Shown here in pieces: positions 1,013-47,033 of a stretch of DNA of 47,106 nucleotides. The notes under the pieces were generated by a model that saw only the letters and a list, made by a program, of their open reading frames with translations, searched no databases and had not been told where the DNA came from. The translations under genes and the position numbers were made by a program. Each line of letters starts with the position of its first letter. The stretch's first letter is position 1. Where the stretch lies: assembly GCA_030656095.1 (NCBI GenBank), contig JAUSOU010000101.1, positions 1 to 47,106 on the forward strand, in the 5' to 3' direction. The DNA is from Thermovirgaceae bacterium (GTDB taxonomy: Bacteria > Synergistota > Synergistia > Synergistales > Thermovirgaceae).

Positions 1013-4000
1013 ATGACGGCAAGAAAATTGATGCATTCCTTGATACTTGTATCTATCGCGGGCGCGCTCTTTCTGGCCTGCTGTGACGTGTTTTCCAGCG
1101 AAGCGCTTGCCGCCCCATCCTGGCTCCAGGTTGGGCAACCGGTTCCCGCTCAGTTTGCCTTCAGCGGAGAAGTTCCCTCCATGGAAGAGCTGCGCGAGGC
1201 TTTTATCCGGAGGTTCGGGACTGATCCATCGAAATGGCCCGATGAGTTCCGCCGCATTCACGAGACCCAGGTGGCTTTCAACAAGCGGGCCCTTGCGAGT
1301 TCAAAATTTCAGGGGCAGTTCGGCAGGGAGGCGCTGGATAAGATCAGGGTCCAGGCCGAGGATCCAGTCGGCTACTGGGTCCGCTCGCTATACGACGGGT
1401 GGGGTTTCGAGGAGTGGTTCAACCACGATCACCTTACGGTCCAGAGGGTTCCAAGAGCCCTCCTGGGCCGCTTTCTCAACGAGTTGTTTCCGTTGATGTG
1501 GAGGGACATCAGGAGCATCATCCACGTCCAGGAGCTGATGCTTGGATTTCCCGACGCCAAGTTCGTTCCGTACAATAGCTACGACGGTCAGGTTCTTCAT
1601 CTGAGAAAGCGCGATGTTCTTGAATACAATGGCCTAATCGAGAAGGCCGCCAATAAGTACATCAGGGAAAACGATTTCCTGATGCTTCTTCTGATGCCTG
1701 AGCGCATCGACACAAACTGGGTCGGTGACGCTGGACTGGAAGCCTCTCTGGTCAGCAGGGCAAAAAAACTCTCGGGAAGAATCCAGGATGTCGTCCGGAA
1801 TATGGACCGGAGTTTCAGGGAGTCTTTTTACAAGGCGGTTCCCCGCCTGACGTACTCATGGAACGAGGAACCGTGGTCGGAAAACCACGTTGTCCTGGAC
1901 GGGAAACCAAAGAAGAGATCGGCCAACGTTGATCTCCTTGGCGTCAGCACCCGGATCGAACACCCCTTCATTGGAGAAAAGACAACGGTTAAAGACCAGA
2001 AGATCCTTTCGGGCGCGGCGCTGAAACTGCAGTGGGGAACCGCACCGGTTCACTCGTCCGAGTTTGACAAGGGTGCCGTTGTCGCAAAAATCTCCTCACG
2101 GTACATGATAGCCAAAAAACAGTATGGGGAATCAAAGGAGTTCGTGCTCTCTCTCTACCTTGACCATGTCTCCGGATTCGGCCACGAGGTCGCCTTCACT
2201 CCCGCCGACGGGCCGCCCTACCCCGAGGGAATCGGCGAGGAGATCATGAATGCGGTCACCGCGGCCTTTTTCGAAGCCGCTGAGACCCTGTACGGCAAAT
2301 CATCCATGAACGAGCCGCAGGCCCTGAATGTTCCCGGTACTCAGGTTCTCGGTCCCGCTTCAGTCAGAAAGGTCCTCCTGAAACCTCCAAAAGAAAAGCG
2401 CCTCAATGTAATTGGCGATGAGCCGCGCGGATCTTCATTTACCGTCAGCGTCTGGGATGGAAGAAAAAAATTTCCCCATGCGGAGGTTTCGGTAAGGAAA
2501 CCGGAGGTAGGTTCTCTCTCGTCGAAAAACGCGACGGGAGGAGATGAGAAATGGCTGTTTATCACTACCGGCCCGCTTGGTGATGCCGAAGTCGTCTATG
2601 ATCCGCCTTCGAATTCGGAACTCAAGACGCTAGGGCCAATCCAGTGGGATGTCGTAATCGTGGTCGAAGATACCCTCGGAGGAGAAGGATCTTCGCTCAC
2701 CCTGAAAGTGATAAGGCCCAGGGACATCGACATCACGGCGGAACATGCCGTATTGCCGGCCGATCCCTCCTTTGCAAACCCGGTCCGTTTCCGTTTCGAC
2801 GGGAAGGGGCCCGGGAGCGACCCTTCCGAAAGATTCCGGATAAAGATAAGGGCCTTGAGCGGCATGGGGGTGTTGTCCACGAAGCGAGGCGATATAGGAG
2901 GCAGGAGTACCCTCGCCCTTGAGATCGAAGCCGACAGGGAGCACGAACTCTTTTACAGGTGGCTGGGTGACAGGAAGCTCAAGGGGCCCGTCGCCGAAAC
3001 CCTTCTTTTCGAGGTTCCGGAACTCGAGATAAAGGGCTCTGTGACCTTTTCGGTGGGAGTTGCCCCATACATTCATTCGCCGCAGGGGACGCACCCGGAC
3101 ATAAAGCAGCCAGGTCTTTTCATCCCCCTCAAGGTCTACGTCCAGGACGAGTATCACCCCGATCTGGACATGGCGGCGTTCCTGAAGGCCTTTGGACTCA
3201 AACCGGTTCTAGATATCAGGCAGGTTAGTTTCGAGCCCGTGGAATCGGACGGCTCAAAAAGCAGCCAGATCCTTGAAGCGATACTGCAGCACATCAAGGG
3301 GGCTGAACTGCCCCGGGATGTGCAATCCCTGGAACCGGAATCATGGTCTCTGGTCAAGGAATCCGGTTCCAGGTGGTTTATCGCGGGTGATACCCCCGGT
3401 GGGGATTACTCCTCGGAAAATGTCATTCCGGGCGTCATCCCCTGGGAATACGGTGACTACACCTTCAGGATAAGCATGAATCTCGAGGATACAAGAGGGG
3501 TTTCCGTTGAACCTCTAAGGCGGACGATGACGAGCATACTGCACGTTCGCCCTTTCGCGCCATCCTCCGGTGACGGCCAGGCGGACCTCATCCTTCCGTT
3601 GATACTCGCCTTCTCCGCAATATTTCCCGGAGAGGATACCCGGCAATTTGCAGCCAAAAGCAGGAACCTTCTCCAAAAGGGCGATTTTGAAGCCGTTTCT
3701 GTCGCCCTGGGGGAGCAGTTTTCCCAGCGGCTCTCATGGTCTTCCATATCGGATCTTGCAAACGCGGCTGACCGGGAACGCCTGGTTAAACTCGTCGCCA
3801 AGGCACACGGGATTTCCGGAGCTTCTCTGTCAGAGGATATAGTGAATGAATCTATCTTCCGCACCAAGCGCAACTTCCTCTGCGCCGTGGCAGGGGTTTA
3901 TGCGGAATCATTCCTTTCCGGGGGCTACGATCTGTCCCGCCTTGCGGAAGGTCCCTCTTCCGGGGCGAACGGTTCGGAGGTCCTTATCCTCGAGATGATC

Positions 4001-4336
4001 AAGTGTTTTCTCGAGGGTTACGGAGAATACGGGATCGTCGCCCTGACAAATGAAAACATCCGGTCTCTCGAGGTCTACACAGAATCAGGCGAGAGGCTCA
4101 CAGAGTTCCCAGGCCAGGTTTTCGGCGGGGGAGACGACTCCAGGAGGATCTTCAACGGGAAACACTCGGTTGTGATCCCCTTCAGGCTCGGCGAGAATCT
4201 TATGATAACTCTTCGAGGCAATGGAGAACCCGTCGATGCGATAAAGATCCTCCCCAACGGCATCAACGTCCAGCGGTACGGCTTCCGTCCGGGGAGCGAA
4301 ACCATCAACGTCTACGGCGATGTGGTGAGGCCGTAA
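1013..4336 (+). CDS. Large exported protein of unknown function (1107 aa)
   Basis: N-terminus has a basic start, a hydrophobic core (SLILVSIAGALFLACC) and an SEALAA-type cleavage site near residue 33, so it is exported; LFLAC is close to but not a good lipobox, leaving a lipoprotein possible. The mature part is long, without further membrane segments. The middle (about residues 470-900) is rich in short beta-strand-like stretches with Gly/Pro turns, resembling repeated Ig-like or beta-sandwich domains (for example TVSVWDGRKKFPHAEVSVRKPEVG), and the N-terminal 400 residues are more helical. No catalytic motif recognised. The last 70 residues look like a beta-rich C-terminal domain. The stop codon TAA lies inside the octamer repeat that follows. 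No gene partner on its strand; function is not inferred. Confidence 0.8.
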   Translation: MTARKLMHSLILVSIAGALFLACCDVFSSEALAAPSWLQVGQPVPAQFAFSGEVPSMEELREAFIRRFGTDPSKWPDEFRRIHETQVAFNKRALASSKFQGQFGREALDKIRVQAEDPVGYWVRSLYDGWGFEEWFNHDHLTVQRVPRALLGRFLNELFPLMWRDIRSIIHVQELMLGFPDAKFVPYNSYDGQVLHLRKRDVLEYNGLIEKAANKYIRENDFLMLLLMPERIDTNWVGDAGLEASLVSRAKKLSGRIQDVVRNMDRSFRESFYKAVPRLTYSWNEEPWSENHVVLDGKPKKRSANVDLLGVSTRIEHPFIGEKTTVKDQKILSGAALKLQWGTAPVHSSEFDKGAVVAKISSRYMIAKKQYGESKEFVLSLYLDHVSGFGHEVAFTPADGPPYPEGIGEEIMNAVTAAFFEAAETLYGKSSMNEPQALNVPGTQVLGPASVRKVLLKPPKEKRLNVIGDEPRGSSFTVSVWDGRKKFPHAEVSVRKPEVGSLSSKNATGGDEKWLFITTGPLGDAEVVYDPPSNSELKTLGPIQWDVVIVVEDTLGGEGSSLTLKVIRPRDIDITAEHAVLPADPSFANPVRFRFDGKGPGSDPSERFRIKIRALSGMGVLSTKRGDIGGRSTLALEIEADREHELFYRWLGDRKLKGPVAETLLFEVPELEIKGSVTFSVGVAPYIHSPQGTHPDIKQPGLFIPLKVYVQDEYHPDLDMAAFLKAFGLKPVLDIRQVSFEPVESDGSKSSQILEAILQHIKGAELPRDVQSLEPESWSLVKESGSRWFIAGDTPGGDYSSENVIPGVIPWEYGDYTFRISMNLEDTRGVSVEPLRRTMTSILHVRPFAPSSGDGQADLILPLILAFSAIFPGEDTRQFAAKSRNLLQKGDFEAVSVALGEQFSQRLSWSSISDLANAADRERLVKLVAKAHGISGASLSEDIVNESIFRTKRNFLCAVAGVYAESFLSGGYDLSRLAEGPSSGANGSEVLILEMIKCFLEGYGEYGIVALTNENIRSLEVYTESGERLTEFPGQVFGGGDDSRRIFNGKHSVVIPFRLGENLMITLRGNGEPVDAIKILPNGINVQRYGFRPGSETINVYGDVVRP

Positions 4337-4517
4337 CTCGTGACTCGTAACTCGTAACTTGGAAAAACCCAAAATGAAAACGCAAAACCAGATAAATCAC
4401 GAAAAAGCAGGGCCGAGTCTATAGACTCCGGCCCTGCTTGGTGTCTTGGAAAATTTCCAGATTCAACTCTGCAGCTCTTGCCTTTTCGAGTCACGAGTTA
4501 CGAGTCACGCGTTACGG
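4333..4517. repeat. Octamer repeat cassette, inverted blocks around a terminator
   Basis: Left block 4333-4360 is tandem GTAACTCG/GTGACTCG units and contains the stop codon of the 1013 gene; right block 4486-4517 is the reverse-complement form (CGAGTCACGAGTTACG and so on) and ends 7 bp from the stop of the convergent gene at 4524. Between them are an A-rich segment and a terminator hairpin. The two blocks can pair into one long imperfect stem. Confidence 0.85.
4402..4437 (-). terminator. Intrinsic terminator of the racemase gene
   Basis: Stem of about 13 bp (GCAGGGCC-GAGTC pairing with GACTCCGGCCCTGC, one bulged base). Read on the minus strand it is followed by TTTTTC, so it serves the minus-strand gene at 4524-5534. 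Confidence 0.7.
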
Positions 4518-4523
4518 TTTTTC

Positions 4524-7898: not shown

Positions 7899-7998
7899 CG
7901 TAACTCGTGACTCGTAACTGGTGACTAGTAAGAACAAAAGAAACCATAGATTTTTAATCCTTAAAATGGGTTTCCGGGTAAAAGGTAACGAGTCACGC
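7899..7998. repeat. Octamer repeat pair in divergent gap
   Basis: Left block 7899-7930 (GTAACTCGTGACTCGTAACTGGTGACTAG) and a short right block 7984-7998 (GGTAACGAGTCACGC), separated by an A/T-rich stretch without a clear hairpin. This is the one site that lies between two gene starts (arnD and the GntR gene) and not behind a stop codon. Confidence 0.75.
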
Positions 7999-12040: not shown

Positions 12041-12041
12041 G

Positions 12042-12069
12042 AACAGGAGACAGGAGACAGGAGACAGGA
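12042..12069. repeat. Heptamer tandem repeat after hypD stop
   Basis: AACAGGAGACAGGAGACAGG: about four units of ACAGGAG starting 2 bp after the hypD stop codon. The same family occurs at 22324-22350, 22406-22430 and 27028-27067. Confidence 0.8.
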
Positions 12070-12086
12070 AAATCCAAACCATAAAC

Positions 12087-12277: not shown

Positions 12278-13429
12278 ATGAAATTTTCGTCCCTGTTCTC
12301 GTTTCTGGGCATAGCCTTAAGCATCTATGCGGCGGCAAATCTCTATATATGGATACATCTGGCCAGGGTGATCCCTTACCTGGGGTCTCTCAGGATACCT
12401 GTGCTGGTGGGGTTCTGGCTCCTTGTCGCCGCGTTCCCGCTGGGCAGGATCGGCGGGACGATCTTCCGCTGCAGATTCACAGACACTCTTGCCGTCCTGG
12501 GTTCGTGGTACATGGCGGCCATGATAATGGCCCTGCTTATGCTTGGGCTTCTGGACATTTTGCTGGTAGCCGATCAATGGCTCCGCATTTTCCCGGATTC
12601 CCTGGCAAGGCGTCCGGAGATGGCGCGGCTGGTTTTCTTCTGGGTGATCGTCTCCCTGACGGTCATTTTCGTCGCCGCAGGGCGATGGAACGCCATCCAT
12701 CCGGTACTTCGGGAATATGAGATCACCCTCAGGGGAACTCCGCAAGATGCTCCGGTCCGTGTTGTCGTGGCGACGGATCTTCATGTGGGTCTTATGGTAA
12801 AGAACCACTGGCTGGGCAGGATGATCGAAGTCATCAACTCGGCCTCGCCTGATGTTGTGCTTCTGGTGGGGGATACCGTCGATTCCGACGCCACTCACGC
12901 CCAAGAGGAGAGGCTCTCCGATGAGCTGGCTTTGATCTCCGCTCCGCTCGGGGTTTATGCCGTGCTGGGCAATCACGAATTCTACTCGGGAGCCCAGGAG
13001 GCCGTTAACTCGTACGAAGCCGGAGGCGTGAGAGTCCTCCGCGATGAATGTGTCGTCATAGGAGATGCCTTTACTCTCTTGGGCCGCGATGACAGGGTAT
13101 CGCCACGGATGGGACTCAATCGCCTTCCTCTGGCAGAGATACCGGGAGTGAACGGGGGTCTCCCTGTAATAGTGATGGATCACACGCCGTCGCATCTTGG
13201 GGAGGCGGAGAAAGCCGGAGTCGCACTGCAGGTCTCCGGCCACACGCACAGGGGACAGCTGTGGCCGTTCAACTACATAACAGCCCACATCTTTGAACAG
13301 GACTGGGGTTTTCTCAAGAAAGGGAAAACGCTTTATTACATCTCCTGCGGAGTTGGTGTCTGGGGTCCGCCGATCAGGACATCCAGCCGCCCGGAAGTGG
13401 TGGTGCTGAAGATAAGATTTGAACCGTAA
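12278..13429 (+). CDS. Membrane-anchored metallophosphoesterase (YaeI-like)
   Basis: 383 residues. Four hydrophobic segments in the first 140 residues (about 5-25, 38-55, 72-95, 110-135), then a calcineurin-like phosphoesterase domain with all metal-ligand motifs: DLHVG, GDTVDSD, GNHE, and GHTHRGQLWP. In the family these bind two metals and hydrolyse phosphomonoesters or diesters; relatives such as YaeI act on cell-envelope substrates. The ATG has a GGAGG site 8 bp upstream. Single gene; the Ara4N cluster lies 1 kb further but no functional link is shown. Confidence 0.88.
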   Translation: MKFSSLFSFLGIALSIYAAANLYIWIHLARVIPYLGSLRIPVLVGFWLLVAAFPLGRIGGTIFRCRFTDTLAVLGSWYMAAMIMALLMLGLLDILLVADQWLRIFPDSLARRPEMARLVFFWVIVSLTVIFVAAGRWNAIHPVLREYEITLRGTPQDAPVRVVVATDLHVGLMVKNHWLGRMIEVINSASPDVVLLVGDTVDSDATHAQEERLSDELALISAPLGVYAVLGNHEFYSGAQEAVNSYEAGGVRVLRDECVVIGDAFTLLGRDDRVSPRMGLNRLPLAEIPGVNGGLPVIVMDHTPSHLGEAEKAGVALQVSGHTHRGQLWPFNYITAHIFEQDWGFLKKGKTLYYISCGVGVWGPPIRTSSRPEVVVLKIRFEP

Positions 13430-13453
13430 ATCGCGAGTCGTGTGATCTGTAAA
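13423..13453. repeat. Degenerate octamer repeat at stop codon
   Basis: CCGTAAATCGCGAGTCGTGTGATCTGTAAA: degenerate GTAAATCG-type units; the TAA of the phosphoesterase gene is within the first unit. Its likely partner is the block at 14349-14378, placing the toxin-antitoxin pair between the two. Confidence 0.55.
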
Positions 13454-14150: not shown

Positions 14151-14348
14151 GAAATAGCCAACCAATCAGTCCACCGGATCCTCATTGATACCTTTTTCCG
14201 AGTGCGATTATTTGGCAGACTTGTCCAATATGGCCTCCAAAACCGTTTCGGTTACTGGGGCATGTTCCCGATTTCAGTTTATTTTGGACAGCTCCGGGTT
14301 TTGCATTTACCAGTGATCCTGCCTTCGGCATTTATGTCCCTGCTCTTC

Positions 14349-14378
14349 CGAGTCACGAGTTACCAGTAACGAGTCACG
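14349..14378. repeat. Octamer repeat block after phosphomannomutase gene
   Basis: CGAGTCACGAGTTACCAGTAACGAGTCACGG: right-hand (reverse-complement) form, ending 6 bp from the stop of the minus-strand gene at 14385. The rest of the 234-bp gap 14151-14384 shows no ORF, terminator or promoter that I can support. Confidence 0.8.
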
Positions 14379-16835: not shown

Positions 16836-17210
16836 AAGAAAACCCCCCTTTGGCTGGAGAAAAAATCAAGAGTAAGAATTTCAAAAAGAGAAAACCCAAG
16901 TCTTTCACCACGGAGGACACAGAGGGCCACAGAGAAAGGCAAAAGCCTTTTTTGGATTTAGAAACAAAAGAACCTGAAATATTTTTTCTGATTTATTGAG
17001 TTGATCTGCGTCCATCTTCGTAATACCCTACAGTCACCCATCGGCGGATCCGGAATTTCAGAATTACAGAAAGGCAAAGACGTGGATCACAAATTGTGAC
17101 CGGTTACAAGTTCCCGGGTCTTGTAATTCAGAGTCCGGCCATGGGTTGTGCAAAGAATCCGGGTCTGATCCTGTAACTTGAAGTATTGTATTTGGTTTTG
17201 ATCTTTCGAG
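16836..17210. other. Intergenic region with two repeat blocks, splits arnA
   Basis: 375 bp with no ORF. It holds a CACAGAG-type arm at 16903-16937 (TTTCACCACGGAGGACACAG) and an octamer block at 17206-17229 (CGAGTTACGAGTCACGTGTC) that supplies the last codons and stop of the formyltransferase gene. No terminator or promoter found between them. Confidence 0.7.
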
Positions 17211-18080
17211 TTACGAGTCACGTGTCACGCTCTTCTCATCCACCCTTACAACTCCCTTGCCCGCGGCGACGAGAAAAGGGTCCGTGGATATCACGGTTCC
17301 GGGAGAAGCATCGGCATTCTCGTCCAGGGGTGTTGCCTTCCAGATGAAGATCTTCTCGCCGTTCAGAACGGCGAAGGCTCCCGGATAGGGGTGAGTCACG
17401 GCCCTGACAAGGTTGCAGATGTTTCTGGCCGGGGCGTTCCAGTCTATCCTGCCGTCCTTCGGTCTTCTGCCTCCGAAGTACGTCGCCTGCGAACGATCCT
17501 GTTCCTTCCGCGGGGCCTTTCCCGATTCCAGCAGAGGCAGGTTCCTCGTGATGACCTTTTCGGCGGCATCCGCAATTTTCAGCATCACGTCCATCGCTGT
17601 GTCGCTCTCTTCGATGGGAACCCTTTCCTGGTCGACGATGTCCCCCTCGTCGGGGTGCTTCGTCATCCAGTGAAGCGTGGGGCCCGTCTCGGTTTCTCCA
17701 TTGATGATGGCCCAGTTGACGCAGGCTCTTCCTCGGTACTTCGGCAGAAGCGACCCGTGCATATTGAAGGCTCCCAGGCGCGGTATCTCAAGGATAGGTT
17801 CAGGGATGATGTCGCGATAATAAAAGGAGAAGATCAGTTCCGGCTGAAGGTTCCTTATCTGATCCAGGATTTCAAGGGTTTTCACTCCATCAGGAGTGAA
17901 AACGGGTAGTCCGTTGTCCAGCGCGAGCTCCCTCACGGAGCTAAACCATGTATTTTCACCCGGGTCGTCCTCGTAGGTGAAAACTGCCCGCACATCAGCG
18001 CCGGAGCGCAGCAACGCTCCGAGGCATCTGTAACCCACCTCACTGTAGGCAAAAACCACTATCCCCGGTCTGTCACTCAT
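17211..18080 (-). CDS. arnA: UDP-L-Ara4N formyltransferase (ArnA N-terminal half, stand-alone)
   Basis: 289 residues. Transfers formyl from 10-formyl-THF to UDP-Ara4N. Formyltransferase triad Asn106, His108 (FNMHGSLLPKYRGRA) and Asp144 (DEGDIV) correspond to E. coli ArnA Asn102/His104/Asp140. The start overlaps the arnC stop by 8 bp. The C-terminus is odd: the last codons (VTRDS, then TAA) are made of the octamer repeat at 17206-17229, as if the repeat had replaced the natural 3' end. The residues lost are beyond the catalytic core, so the enzyme should still work. Confidence 0.92.
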   Translation of the reverse strand: MSDRPGIVVFAYSEVGYRCLGALLRSGADVRAVFTYEDDPGENTWFSSVRELALDNGLPVFTPDGVKTLEILDQIRNLQPELIFSFYYRDIIPEPILEIPRLGAFNMHGSLLPKYRGRACVNWAIINGETETGPTLHWMTKHPDEGDIVDQERVPIEESDTAMDVMLKIADAAEKVITRNLPLLESGKAPRKEQDRSQATYFGGRRPKDGRIDWNAPARNICNLVRAVTHPYPGAFAVLNGEKIFIWKATPLDENADASPGTVISTDPFLVAAGKGVVRVDEKSVTRDS

Positions 18081-22317: not shown

Positions 22318-22323
22318 AAAAAC

Positions 22324-22430
22324 AAGGAAACAGGAAACAGGAAACAGGAAAACCCCAATCCAGTGGCAGATTACAGGTAGGGGTCGGCATTAAGGTTTTC
22401 TGACGCCTGATGCCTGTCTCCTGCCTCCTG
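22324..22430. repeat. Heptamer repeat pair, inverted
   Basis: Left block 22324-22350 (AAGGAAACAGGAAACAGG) begins 7 bp after the flippase stop; right block 22406-22430 (CCTGATGCCTGTCTCC) is the complement form, 20 bp before the ugd ATG. They can form an imperfect stem across about 55 bp. Confidence 0.75.
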
Positions 22431-23789: not shown

Positions 23790-23958
23790 CGTAACTCGTA
23801 ACTGGTGACTCGTGACTCGAAAAAGCAAAACCCCGAAGCCGAAATAAAAAACTTGCCAACAAAGACAGGGCCGGAGTGTGCAATGCCCCGGCCCTGTCTT
23901 TAGTGATTGCTTTTGTTTTTGATTTTTTCGAGTCACGCGTTACGAGTCACGCGTGACG
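23790..23958. repeat. Octamer repeat cassette around a terminator
   Basis: Left block 23790-23819 (GTAACTCGTAACTGGTGACTCG) 11 bp after the ugd stop, right block 23929-23958 in complement form 4 bp from the citF stop. Same plan as 4333-4517, including the A-rich linker and central hairpin. Confidence 0.85.
23861..23901. terminator. Bidirectional terminator between ugd and citF
   Basis: Perfect 14-bp stem AAAGACAGGGCCGG / CCGGCCCTGTCTTT with a 13-base loop. Symmetric and placed between convergent genes. Confidence 0.85.
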
Positions 23959-26659: not shown

Positions 26660-26688
26660 ATGGATACCTCCCTGCGGAACTCGAAAAA

Positions 26689-26804
26689 CGTAACTCGTGA
26701 CTCGAGACTCGTTACTCGTAAAATCAAAGGCAAAATCCGAAAAGGGCTCCTGGTTTATAGTTTCTGCTCTTGCGAGTTACCAGTTACGGGTCACGAGTTA
26801 CGGG
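26689..26804. repeat. Octamer repeat pair upstream of citD
   Basis: Left block 26689-26720 (CGTAACTCGTGACTCGAGAC) and right block 26773-26804 (GCGAGTTACCAGTTACGGGT), with a 52-bp A/T-rich spacer lacking a hairpin. The minus-strand terminator follows directly at 26815. Confidence 0.8.
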
Positions 26805-26814
26805 TCCTAAAAAT

Positions 26815-28305: not shown

Positions 28306-28329
28306 GTGAATTGCCTCCTTGTTTTTAAC

Positions 28330-28452
28330 ACGTAACTGGTAACTCGTGACGCGTTACTCGGAAAACCCAAAACCCGAAATCAGAAATCCCTGGAAGTTTT
28401 TCGATCCTGTTTTTGATCTTACTGGTTACGAGTTACGCGTCACGCGTCACGG
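28330..28452. repeat. Octamer repeat pair between two genes of one cluster
   Basis: Left block 28330-28361 (CGTAACTGGTAACTCGTGAC) and right block 28423-28452 (TGGTTACGAGTTACGCGTCA); the right block ends 3 bp from the stop at 28456. The 61-bp linker has no hairpin, so transcription may pass through here. Confidence 0.8.
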
Positions 28453-28455
28453 TTT

Positions 28456-36334: not shown

Positions 36335-36341
36335 TCCGGGA

Positions 36342-36470
36342 ACCGTAAATCGTAAATCGTTAATCGTTAAGCGAAGAAGCAAGGTGCAAAGCCCTTGCGC
36401 AAGGGTTTTCAAGGCCTGGTTTCCCGATTTGTCATTCACGATTCACGATTTACGATTCACGATTCACGCC
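36342..36470. repeat. GTAAATCG-type repeat cassette
   Basis: Left block 36342-36370 (CGTAAATCGTAAATCGTTAATCG) 8 bp after the kinase stop; right block 36434-36470 (CATTCACGATTCACGATTTA) 15 bp before the LacI start. The units are octamers (GTAAATCG, GTGAATCG) related to but distinct from GTAACTCG; the layout is the same, with a hairpin in between. Confidence 0.85.
36388..36409 (+). terminator. Hairpin: short terminator or LacI-type operator
   Basis: AAAGCCCTTGCGCAAGGGTTTT contains the perfect palindrome CCCTTGCGCAAGGG with central CG, followed by TTTT. As a terminator it would end the kinase transcript; its central-CG palindrome upstream of a LacI gene also fits an autoregulatory operator. I cannot separate the two. 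Confidence 0.45.
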
Positions 36471-36484
36471 TTAAGGTTCCTCCC

Positions 36485-40642: not shown

Positions 40643-40675
40643 GCCGTTAATCGTTAATCGTCGATCATAAATCGA
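40643..40675. repeat. GTTAATCG-type octamer block in a 5' leader
   Basis: CCGTTAATCGTTAATCGTCGATCATAAATCG, about four octamers. Partner block unclear; CGTCTTACGTCTAACATT at 40713 is a weak candidate. Rest of the 280-bp gap holds the promoter only. Confidence 0.7.
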
Positions 40676-40755: not shown

Positions 40756-41172
40756 ATGCTTCGAATAAGACCTGGTCATCCATCAGGGATTAACAGCGCA
40801 ACAGCCAACTTCAAAACAGGAAACCTGATCGGAGGTCTCGATATGTGGCACCAGGACAGCGCAGGCAAATGGTACATGGCGGAAAGCGAAATCATAGGAT
40901 CCGATAACATCGCATCGCCCGCGGATGGCGTTGCGGTCTGGGCCAATACAGTCATATCAGGCGATTTTTTCGAGCTGGGAGTCGACAGCAGCGTTTACCT
41001 TTTTTCCTCCCAGGCCCGGGGGCATGAGAGAGCCGTAAATCGTGACTCGCACCCTGCCGCTGCGCTCGGGGCACCTTGTGACTCGGGGGATGGGGACAGG
41101 AAAACCACATCATCCAAACACAGGGTCGGGGGCGGTATGGCCCCCGCCCTTGTCATCCCGATTCACGCATAA
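40756..41172 (+). CDS. Small hypothetical protein with tail read from repeat sequence
   Basis: 138 residues with AGGAGG at proper spacing and a promoter upstream, so the first 90 residues (MLRIRPGHPSG, then WHQDSAGKWYMAESEI and VISGDFFELGVDSS) are probably genuine; the pattern is beta-rich and there is no signal peptide. From about residue 91 the frame runs through an octamer block (codons read AVNRDS), then a GC hairpin, and the sequence becomes low in coding character. The natural stop may have been lost by a small frameshift near 41010-41030. No family recognised. Confidence 0.5.
   Translation: MLRIRPGHPSGINSATANFKTGNLIGGLDMWHQDSAGKWYMAESEIIGSDNIASPADGVAVWANTVISGDFFELGVDSSVYLFSSQARGHERAVNRDSHPAAALGAPCDSGDGDRKTTSSKHRVGGGMAPALVIPIHA
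41032..41050. repeat. Octamer repeat inside an open frame
   Basis: GCCGTAAATCGTGACTCGC, two units, followed by TTGTGACTCGG at 41086 and GATTCACGC at 41161 as remnants. A GC-rich hairpin (CGGGGGC / GCCCCCG, about 41128-41147) lies between, so this is a worn copy of the usual cassette. Confidence 0.55.
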
Positions 41173-46647: not shown

Positions 46648-46694
46648 ATCGTAAGGCGTGGATCGTAACGCGTAACTCGTGACTTGTGACGCGT
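46648..46694. repeat. Octamer repeat block upstream of feoAB
   Basis: GATCGTAAGGCGTGGATCGT, then AACGCGTAACTCGTGACTTG: about five degenerate octamers, in the left-hand form. Followed by the usual AAAATCAAAGG linker. Confidence 0.75.
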
Positions 46695-46726
46695 AAAATC
46701 AAAGGCCAGGACAAAAACAAGCCTTT

Positions 46727-46882: not shown

Positions 46883-46964
46883 TCGGAGCAACTCGGCCAG
46901 GGTTTCGGAGCAACTCGGCCACCCTGTCGGAGTAATTCGGCCAGCATGACGGAGCAACTCGGCC
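46883..46964. repeat. Four 22-bp-spaced terminal repeats of the insertion sequence
   Basis: TCGGAGCAACTCGGCC at 46883, 46905, 46927 (as TCGGAGTAATTCGGCC) and 46949 (first base A). The period is exactly 22 bp, about two helical turns, fitting binding sites for a multimeric transposase on one DNA face. Confidence 0.85.
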
Positions 46965-47033
46965 TCCCTTAGGTTGGTCGGGGAGGAGGAGTTTGCTCCC
47001 ATCGGGGATCAGGAACAGCGCCGGGCAATCCAA

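Follow-up and report, generated by a model that had tools for sequence, protein, structure and literature searches.

Inward-pointing heptamer arrays at gene borders of one Synergistota family contain three classes of unit position

Cyanobacterial STRR sequences are short tandem heptanucleotides scattered through the genome, and the Omega repressor of pSM19035 uses seven-base sites in rows (WATCACW) at the plasmid centromere and at promoters. RHH_1 proteins are a class that binds heptads. Intergenic heptamers of Xanthomonas (GGGAATC) and Nostoc (GGGGA(C/T)T) have the same layout as the arrays described here, and the accessible part of their description leaves the function open (PMC4692102). Direct repeats of TAACTGA in Beggiatoaceae, according to the accessible sections of the published account, are intergenic, lie just upstream of start codons, point at the start, almost never form inverted pairs and give three-frame stops as forward repeats (PMC4679880).

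We analyzed a stretch of 47,106 nucleotides from a Thermovirgaceae bacterium (GCA_030656095.1, contig JAUSOU010000101.1; the window), together with further sequence from the same assembly and from related genomes. Like STRR, its arrays are scattered tandem heptamers, with a different unit. The Omega heptad, read on the other strand as WGTGATW, has GTGA in common with the present unit, and no candidate protein was found here. As far as the accessible part of the Xanthomonas and Nostoc description goes (PMC4692102), the likeness lies in the use of a seven-base unit only, in the convergent inward layout and in arrays that sit between the same genes in relatives with varied sequence; the difference lies in the phylum and in the present unit, which has no G-tract: its only fixed G is at base 2, and base 4 is either A or G. 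Because the consensus CGTRAMT contains no run of G, it forms no G-quadruplex. The present arrays are a non-G-quadruplex version of a published, functionally unexplained inward heptamer layout, and since the same layout occurs without G-tracts, G-quadruplex formation cannot be its general reason. Randomness at base 4 and array dialects were measured for the present arrays. They share with the Beggiatoaceae repeats, as these appear in the accessible sections (PMC4679880), an intergenic position and three-frame stops, but unlike them lie mostly at stop edges (40 of 55 edge arrays), run inward from both edges and, at start edges, point away. To the intergenic heptamers of Xanthomonas, Nostoc and Beggiatoaceae our work adds a distant lineage. 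Its three classes of unit position provide a testable signature with which simple slippage can be told from sequence-specific maintenance. A full-text literature search for the unit words, with restrictively licensed papers outside its coverage, gave nothing but unrelated papers in the 30 matches listed out of 7,921.

Heptamer arrays in the window

A phase-locked scan with an array threshold of at least 18 bits detected 18 arrays, at precisely the 18 positions of a preliminary description of this DNA that had claimed at least 18 repeat blocks; five dinucleotide shuffles of the window gave 2, 1, 0, 1 and 0 arrays. That description took the unit for an octamer, which was wrong: Tandem Repeats Finder and lag analysis give a unit of seven bases, CGTRACT and its variants. 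It correctly recognized inverted pairs, a separate mix of units at each site and an A-rich inner linker, which is itself partly seven-periodic.

Fourteen of the 18 arrays form seven pairs of a left (+) and a right (-) arm. The left arm at 4332-4365 (+) gives the gene at 1013-4336 its stop codon and is partnered by the right arm at 4483-4520 (-). A divergent gap contains a left arm at 7899-7931 (+) and a weak right arm of 21.5 bits at 7969-7997 (-), a convergent gap the arms at 23790-23823 (+) and 23925-23958 (-), and a codirectional gap the left arm at 26675-26722 (+), followed by a right arm at 26770-26806 (-). The right arm at 28419-28455 (-) lies immediately past a stop codon, and its left partner at 28326-28364 (+) is identical at 36 of 39 bases in a species of the same genus. 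In the next pair, the left arm at 36337-36373 (+), of the CGTRAAT dialect, is identical at 35 of 37 bases in that species, and the right arm at 36421-36479 (-) is of the CGTGAAT dialect. The arms of one pair are about 900 bases apart with a 124-aa ORF between them: the array at 13420-13442 (+) sits at the stop of the 12278-13429 gene, and its distant partner at 14346-14378 (-) lies past the stop of the 14385-15767 gene.

The other arrays are one at 17204-17229 (-), whose third unit provides the stop codon of the 17211-18080 gene; a CGTTAAT array in mid-gap at 40645-40674 (+), without a partner in the source species; a short array within a weakly called ORF at 41034-41049 (+); and one close to the end of the window at 46648-46697 (+). 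The preliminary statement that most blocks start 0-15 bp from a stop codon was too strong: about nine of the 18 arrays are within about 20 bases of a stop, and those away from stops lie near start codons, in mid-gap or, in one case, inside a called ORF. A tandem repeat of period 22/44 (TCGGAGCAACTCGGCCAGCATG) is also present at the window end (46883-46969). Some gaps are filled by other seven-base families, GAGACAG and AAACAGG with their inverse (at 12041-12070, at 22320-22351 and at the right-hand ends of these gaps); the corresponding edges in relatives bear CGTRA-type arrays.

Period, placement and persistence at gene edges

The source assembly (G000) comprises 1.92 Mb in 169 contigs; G001 is the same-genus species, and G000, G002 and G007 represent three genera. 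Genes were called with a purpose-made, non-standard hexamer-based finder. Local repeats at lag 7 numbered 35 in the 226 gaps sampled from G000 and 46 in the 172 from G002; the remaining lags between 3 and 13 gave 0-2 each and shuffles gave none, making lag 7 the sole enriched short period in the sampled intergenic DNA. Beside CGTRACT, the seven-base families include CGTRAAT, CGTTAGA, AGTGAAC and AGGARAC. Some of the sampled stretches were picked because their contigs contained matches, so that array density there is biased upward; orientation and edge type should suffer less. Many arrays of G000 (contigs C3, C4, C29, C60, C80 and C98) lie less than about 250 bases from a contig end, suggesting that assemblies probably break at arrays and that array counts are too low.

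At gap edges, 54 of 55 arrays point inward (32/33 in G000 and 22/22 in G002), irrespective of gene direction. Forty of them are at stop edges, mostly no more than about 12 bases from the stop, and 15 are at start edges, 11-55 bases away and all directed away from the start. Inward arrays occupy 39 of 371 stop edges versus 15 of 425 start edges (Fisher p 1e-4). By gap type, arrays are found in 16/57 convergent, 29/257 codirectional and 8/84 divergent gaps. Array neighbors up to 400 bases apart are ordered '+-' in 32 cases, '-+' in 2, '++' in 17 and '--' in 14, and one long gap of G002 contains nested pairs. The preliminary description had proposed to measure enrichment at stop codons and in inverted pairs, and both are present in the sampled part of the genome. 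The longer gaps between arrays repeatedly contain two further interspersed repeats, one with GTCATTCCGA/GTCATCCTGA words and one with GCTCGGGGCACCTTGT (L245, L250, L255, L259 and several G002 loci).

We looked up all 212 stop edges of the G000 sample in the available sequence of four relatives, all metagenome assemblies yielding small numbers of matched arrays. Where the G000 edge bears an array, the matched edge scores in 6/8 cases in G001, 6/11 in G002, 0/2 in G007 and 0/1 in G008; where it bears none, the figures are 5/29, 6/25, 2/14 and 1/8. By eye, four of the five unscored matched edges in G002 carry a CGTTAGA-type array in seven-base phase. Unit dialect often differs between species at one edge, and entire arrays change dialect: at L255_8672, G000 has a CGTAACT-type and G001 a CGTAAAT-type array at the same boundary, with base 6 changed in four of four units. 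For one gene, the arrays of G007 and G002 share their starting point, that of G000 begins within a few bases of this point, and the sequence downstream is unalignable. Two arrays are identical between G000 and G001 at 36/39 and 35/37 bases; third codon positions match at 63%, and the inner 40 bases next to the arrays are unalignable. Arrays of different loci are about 76% identical through the consensus alone, which leaves the best-preserved pairs as the sole proof of conservation in place.

Unit positions and accounts of maintenance

Our data demonstrate three classes of position within the unit: G2, T3 and A5 are nearly fixed, base 4 is freely mixed between A and G, and bases 6-7 are array-specific. 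The profile in arrays is C.83, G.99, T.92, A.40/G.50, A.97, A.40/C.49 and T.72, corresponding to the consensus CGTRAMT. Among in-register arrays at the same edges, substitutions number 0/59 at G2, 0/59 at A5 and 5/55 at T3, as against 23/59 at base 4, 19/58 at base 6 and 21/54 at base 7. CGTRACT served as the seed of the first detector, whose profile favors the core bases; when a uniform change of 25% was simulated and run through the same detector, 6-7% remained at G2 and A5, so the detector accounts for part of the core invariance (0 changes in 118 comparisons at the two bases), not for all of it. Agreement within arrays is about random at base 4 (.50 vs.47 in G000,.45 vs.42 in G001 and.48 vs.47 in G002) and far above random at base 6 (.58 vs.42,.74 vs.46 and.77 vs.36, respectively) and also at base 7; the eight arrays of G007 behave the same way at bases 6-7. 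Paired arms share their dialect at base 6 (r.41, permutation p.011), base 1 (r.48, p.008) and base 7 (r.36, p.025), and are unmatched at base 4 (r -.21).

We tentatively favor the reading that the arrays are old and that a sequence-specific constraint keeps the GT.A core on its seven-base phase. The cores would most likely be rows of sites for a putative DNA- or RNA-binding factor at transcription-unit borders; base 4, A or G, would not be read by such a factor, and bases 6-7 may drift together along an array. This reading is consistent with the profile and with a core invariance at G2 and A5 beyond the simulated 6-7%, with random base 4 next to uniform bases 6-7, with the inward orientation of 54 of 55 arrays, and with arrays at matched edges in relatives, including the two best-kept ones. 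It sits less easily with the several dialects per genome, not obviously wanted by a single factor, with RHH_1 proteins that do not track array presence, and with the unscored matched edges of G007 and G008 (0/2 and 0/1), although at one other gene the G007 array shares its starting point with that of G002 and, within a few bases, with that of G000. The detector's preference for core bases, the few matched arrays and the metagenome origin of the assemblies also count against it. It is conceivable, if rather doubtful, that this lineage marks transcription-unit borders by rows of seven-base sites for a putative factor, with an invariant GT.A, an unread purine at base 4 and, at bases 6-7, a dialect that changes jointly throughout the array and its partner arm. 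A serious rival, with an appreciable chance of being right, is that the heptamers are neutral or selfish, born by seven-base slippage, passed from arm to arm and locus to locus through template switching or gene conversion, and surviving where they are least harmful, past stops and off promoters. Lag 7 as the sole enriched period, the dialect shared between arms at bases 6 and 1, the richness of convergent and poverty of divergent gaps, and the switching of whole arrays between dialects would all fit neutral copying, and a general excess of heptamers in bacteria is described in the accessible parts of two papers (PMC4692102, PMC4679880). The preliminary idea of a slippage-driven repeat keeps its footing insofar as seven-periodic arrays are compatible with a slippage origin, but base 4 is random beside bases 6-7 that are uniform per array; if whole units were copied, base 4 would travel together with bases 6-7, and simple slippage alone is therefore insufficient. 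The unchanged G2 and A5 likewise speak against neutral copying and for the constraint that we prefer.

Inward orientation makes the arms complementary, and a long RNA hairpin of paired arms could protect or end transcripts at gap borders, which we consider unlikely. Predicted duplexes have -36.2 kcal/mol, compared with -20.4 kcal/mol for shuffled right arms, and own arms pair slightly better than locus-swapped ones (-33.7 kcal/mol; 7 of 200 permutations were as good); A or G at base 4 would also tolerate G-U pairs. Yet base 4 is unmatched between arms, and pairing with G-U counted reaches.820 for own and.815 for swapped arms, results that argue against a hairpin tuned unit by unit; some arrays, moreover, lack a partner. 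In gaps of 100-400 bases, arrays are not commoner where crude terminator-like hairpins occur: these were found in 7/16 codirectional gaps with arrays versus 40/114 without, in 3/9 versus 9/19 convergent gaps and in 0/5 versus 7/54 divergent gaps, so the arrays were rejected as terminator companions; Rfam gave no match at gathering score in the window. The 3'-end stabilizer of the preliminary description is therefore borne out in part, by the enrichment of stop edges and the strong pairing possible between arms, and not by the presence of arrays in divergent gaps, the lack of co-variation at base 4 and the missing link to terminators. A fail-safe translation stop, in which a TAA- or TGA-bearing unit every seven bases puts stops in three frames, is extremely improbable: every frame is closed by a stop in 24 of the 39 stop-edge arrays, some genes end within the array, and the point has already been made for TAACTGA in the accessible sections of its description (PMC4679880), but stop-bearing units make up.85 of units at stop edges,.81 at start edges and.89 elsewhere. 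The stops are thus not gathered at the places where they would count, and the start-edge control led us to reject a stop-codon cassette as what is maintained. We also regard as very unlikely a MITE-like transposable element whose terminal inverted repeats are the heptamers. The excess of '+-' over '-+' neighbors (32 versus 2) and the nested pairs in G002 would suit it, but an all-against-all comparison of the interiors of paired arrays in G000 gave few short matches, and interior matches among long gaps of G002 resemble other interspersed repeats. With interiors mostly unrelated, no shared core, and arrays that keep to matching gene edges across species, the preliminary proposal of a mobile non-coding element is unsupported in the form of a classic MITE; copying of arrays by recombination may occur. 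What probability the constraint and neutral copying leave over is shared by the hairpin, the translation stop and an unrecognized element. REP/BIME elements, palindromes of 20-40 bases that sit beside a tag and are tied to a RAYT transposase, do not match, because the arms are direct heptamer repeats and Y1_Tnp proteins also occur in family genomes that lack arrays.

Distribution across lineages

The arrays are a real, ordered and lineage-restricted repeat system of one Synergistota family. Four GTRA cores on seven-base phase occur in seven of ten family genomes (158, 125, 72, 59, 26, 22 and 2 matches), with 0 matches in G003, G006 and G004, and a reversed control gave 0 in the family genomes apart from 1 in G002. 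Across the phylum, 5 of 185 genomes contain a CGTRACT triplet, and each of the five belongs to this family. Beyond the phylum, a four-unit CGTRACT pattern matched at least 117 stretches from many phyla in genome_contigs; in viral_contigs, a three-unit pattern matched 8 stretches and its reversed-heptamer control, TCARTGC, 30. Because the reversed control is commoner and the phylum contains the word in one family only, cross-phylum occurrence of CGTRACT is no evidence for a shared special word, and we rejected it as a universal special heptamer. The inward rule fails among the 117 listed loci from named organisms, in which genes were called crudely from long ORFs: the 83 edge arrays divide into 29 that are inward (24 at stops, 5 at starts) and 54 that are outward (20 at stops, 34 at starts), and 34 further arrays lie inside ORFs and 11 far from edges.

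Neither of two protein families compared with the arrays tracks them in the ten family genomes. RHH_1 is found in nine of them, with none in the array-bearing G001 and one each in G003, G006 and G004, which lack arrays, and Y1_Tnp proteins are found in all ten, including the three without arrays; presence of RHH_1 or RAYT proteins was rejected as an explanation. The Y1 transposases of all ten genomes are mostly open frames of about 290-330 aa, as in RAYT proteins.
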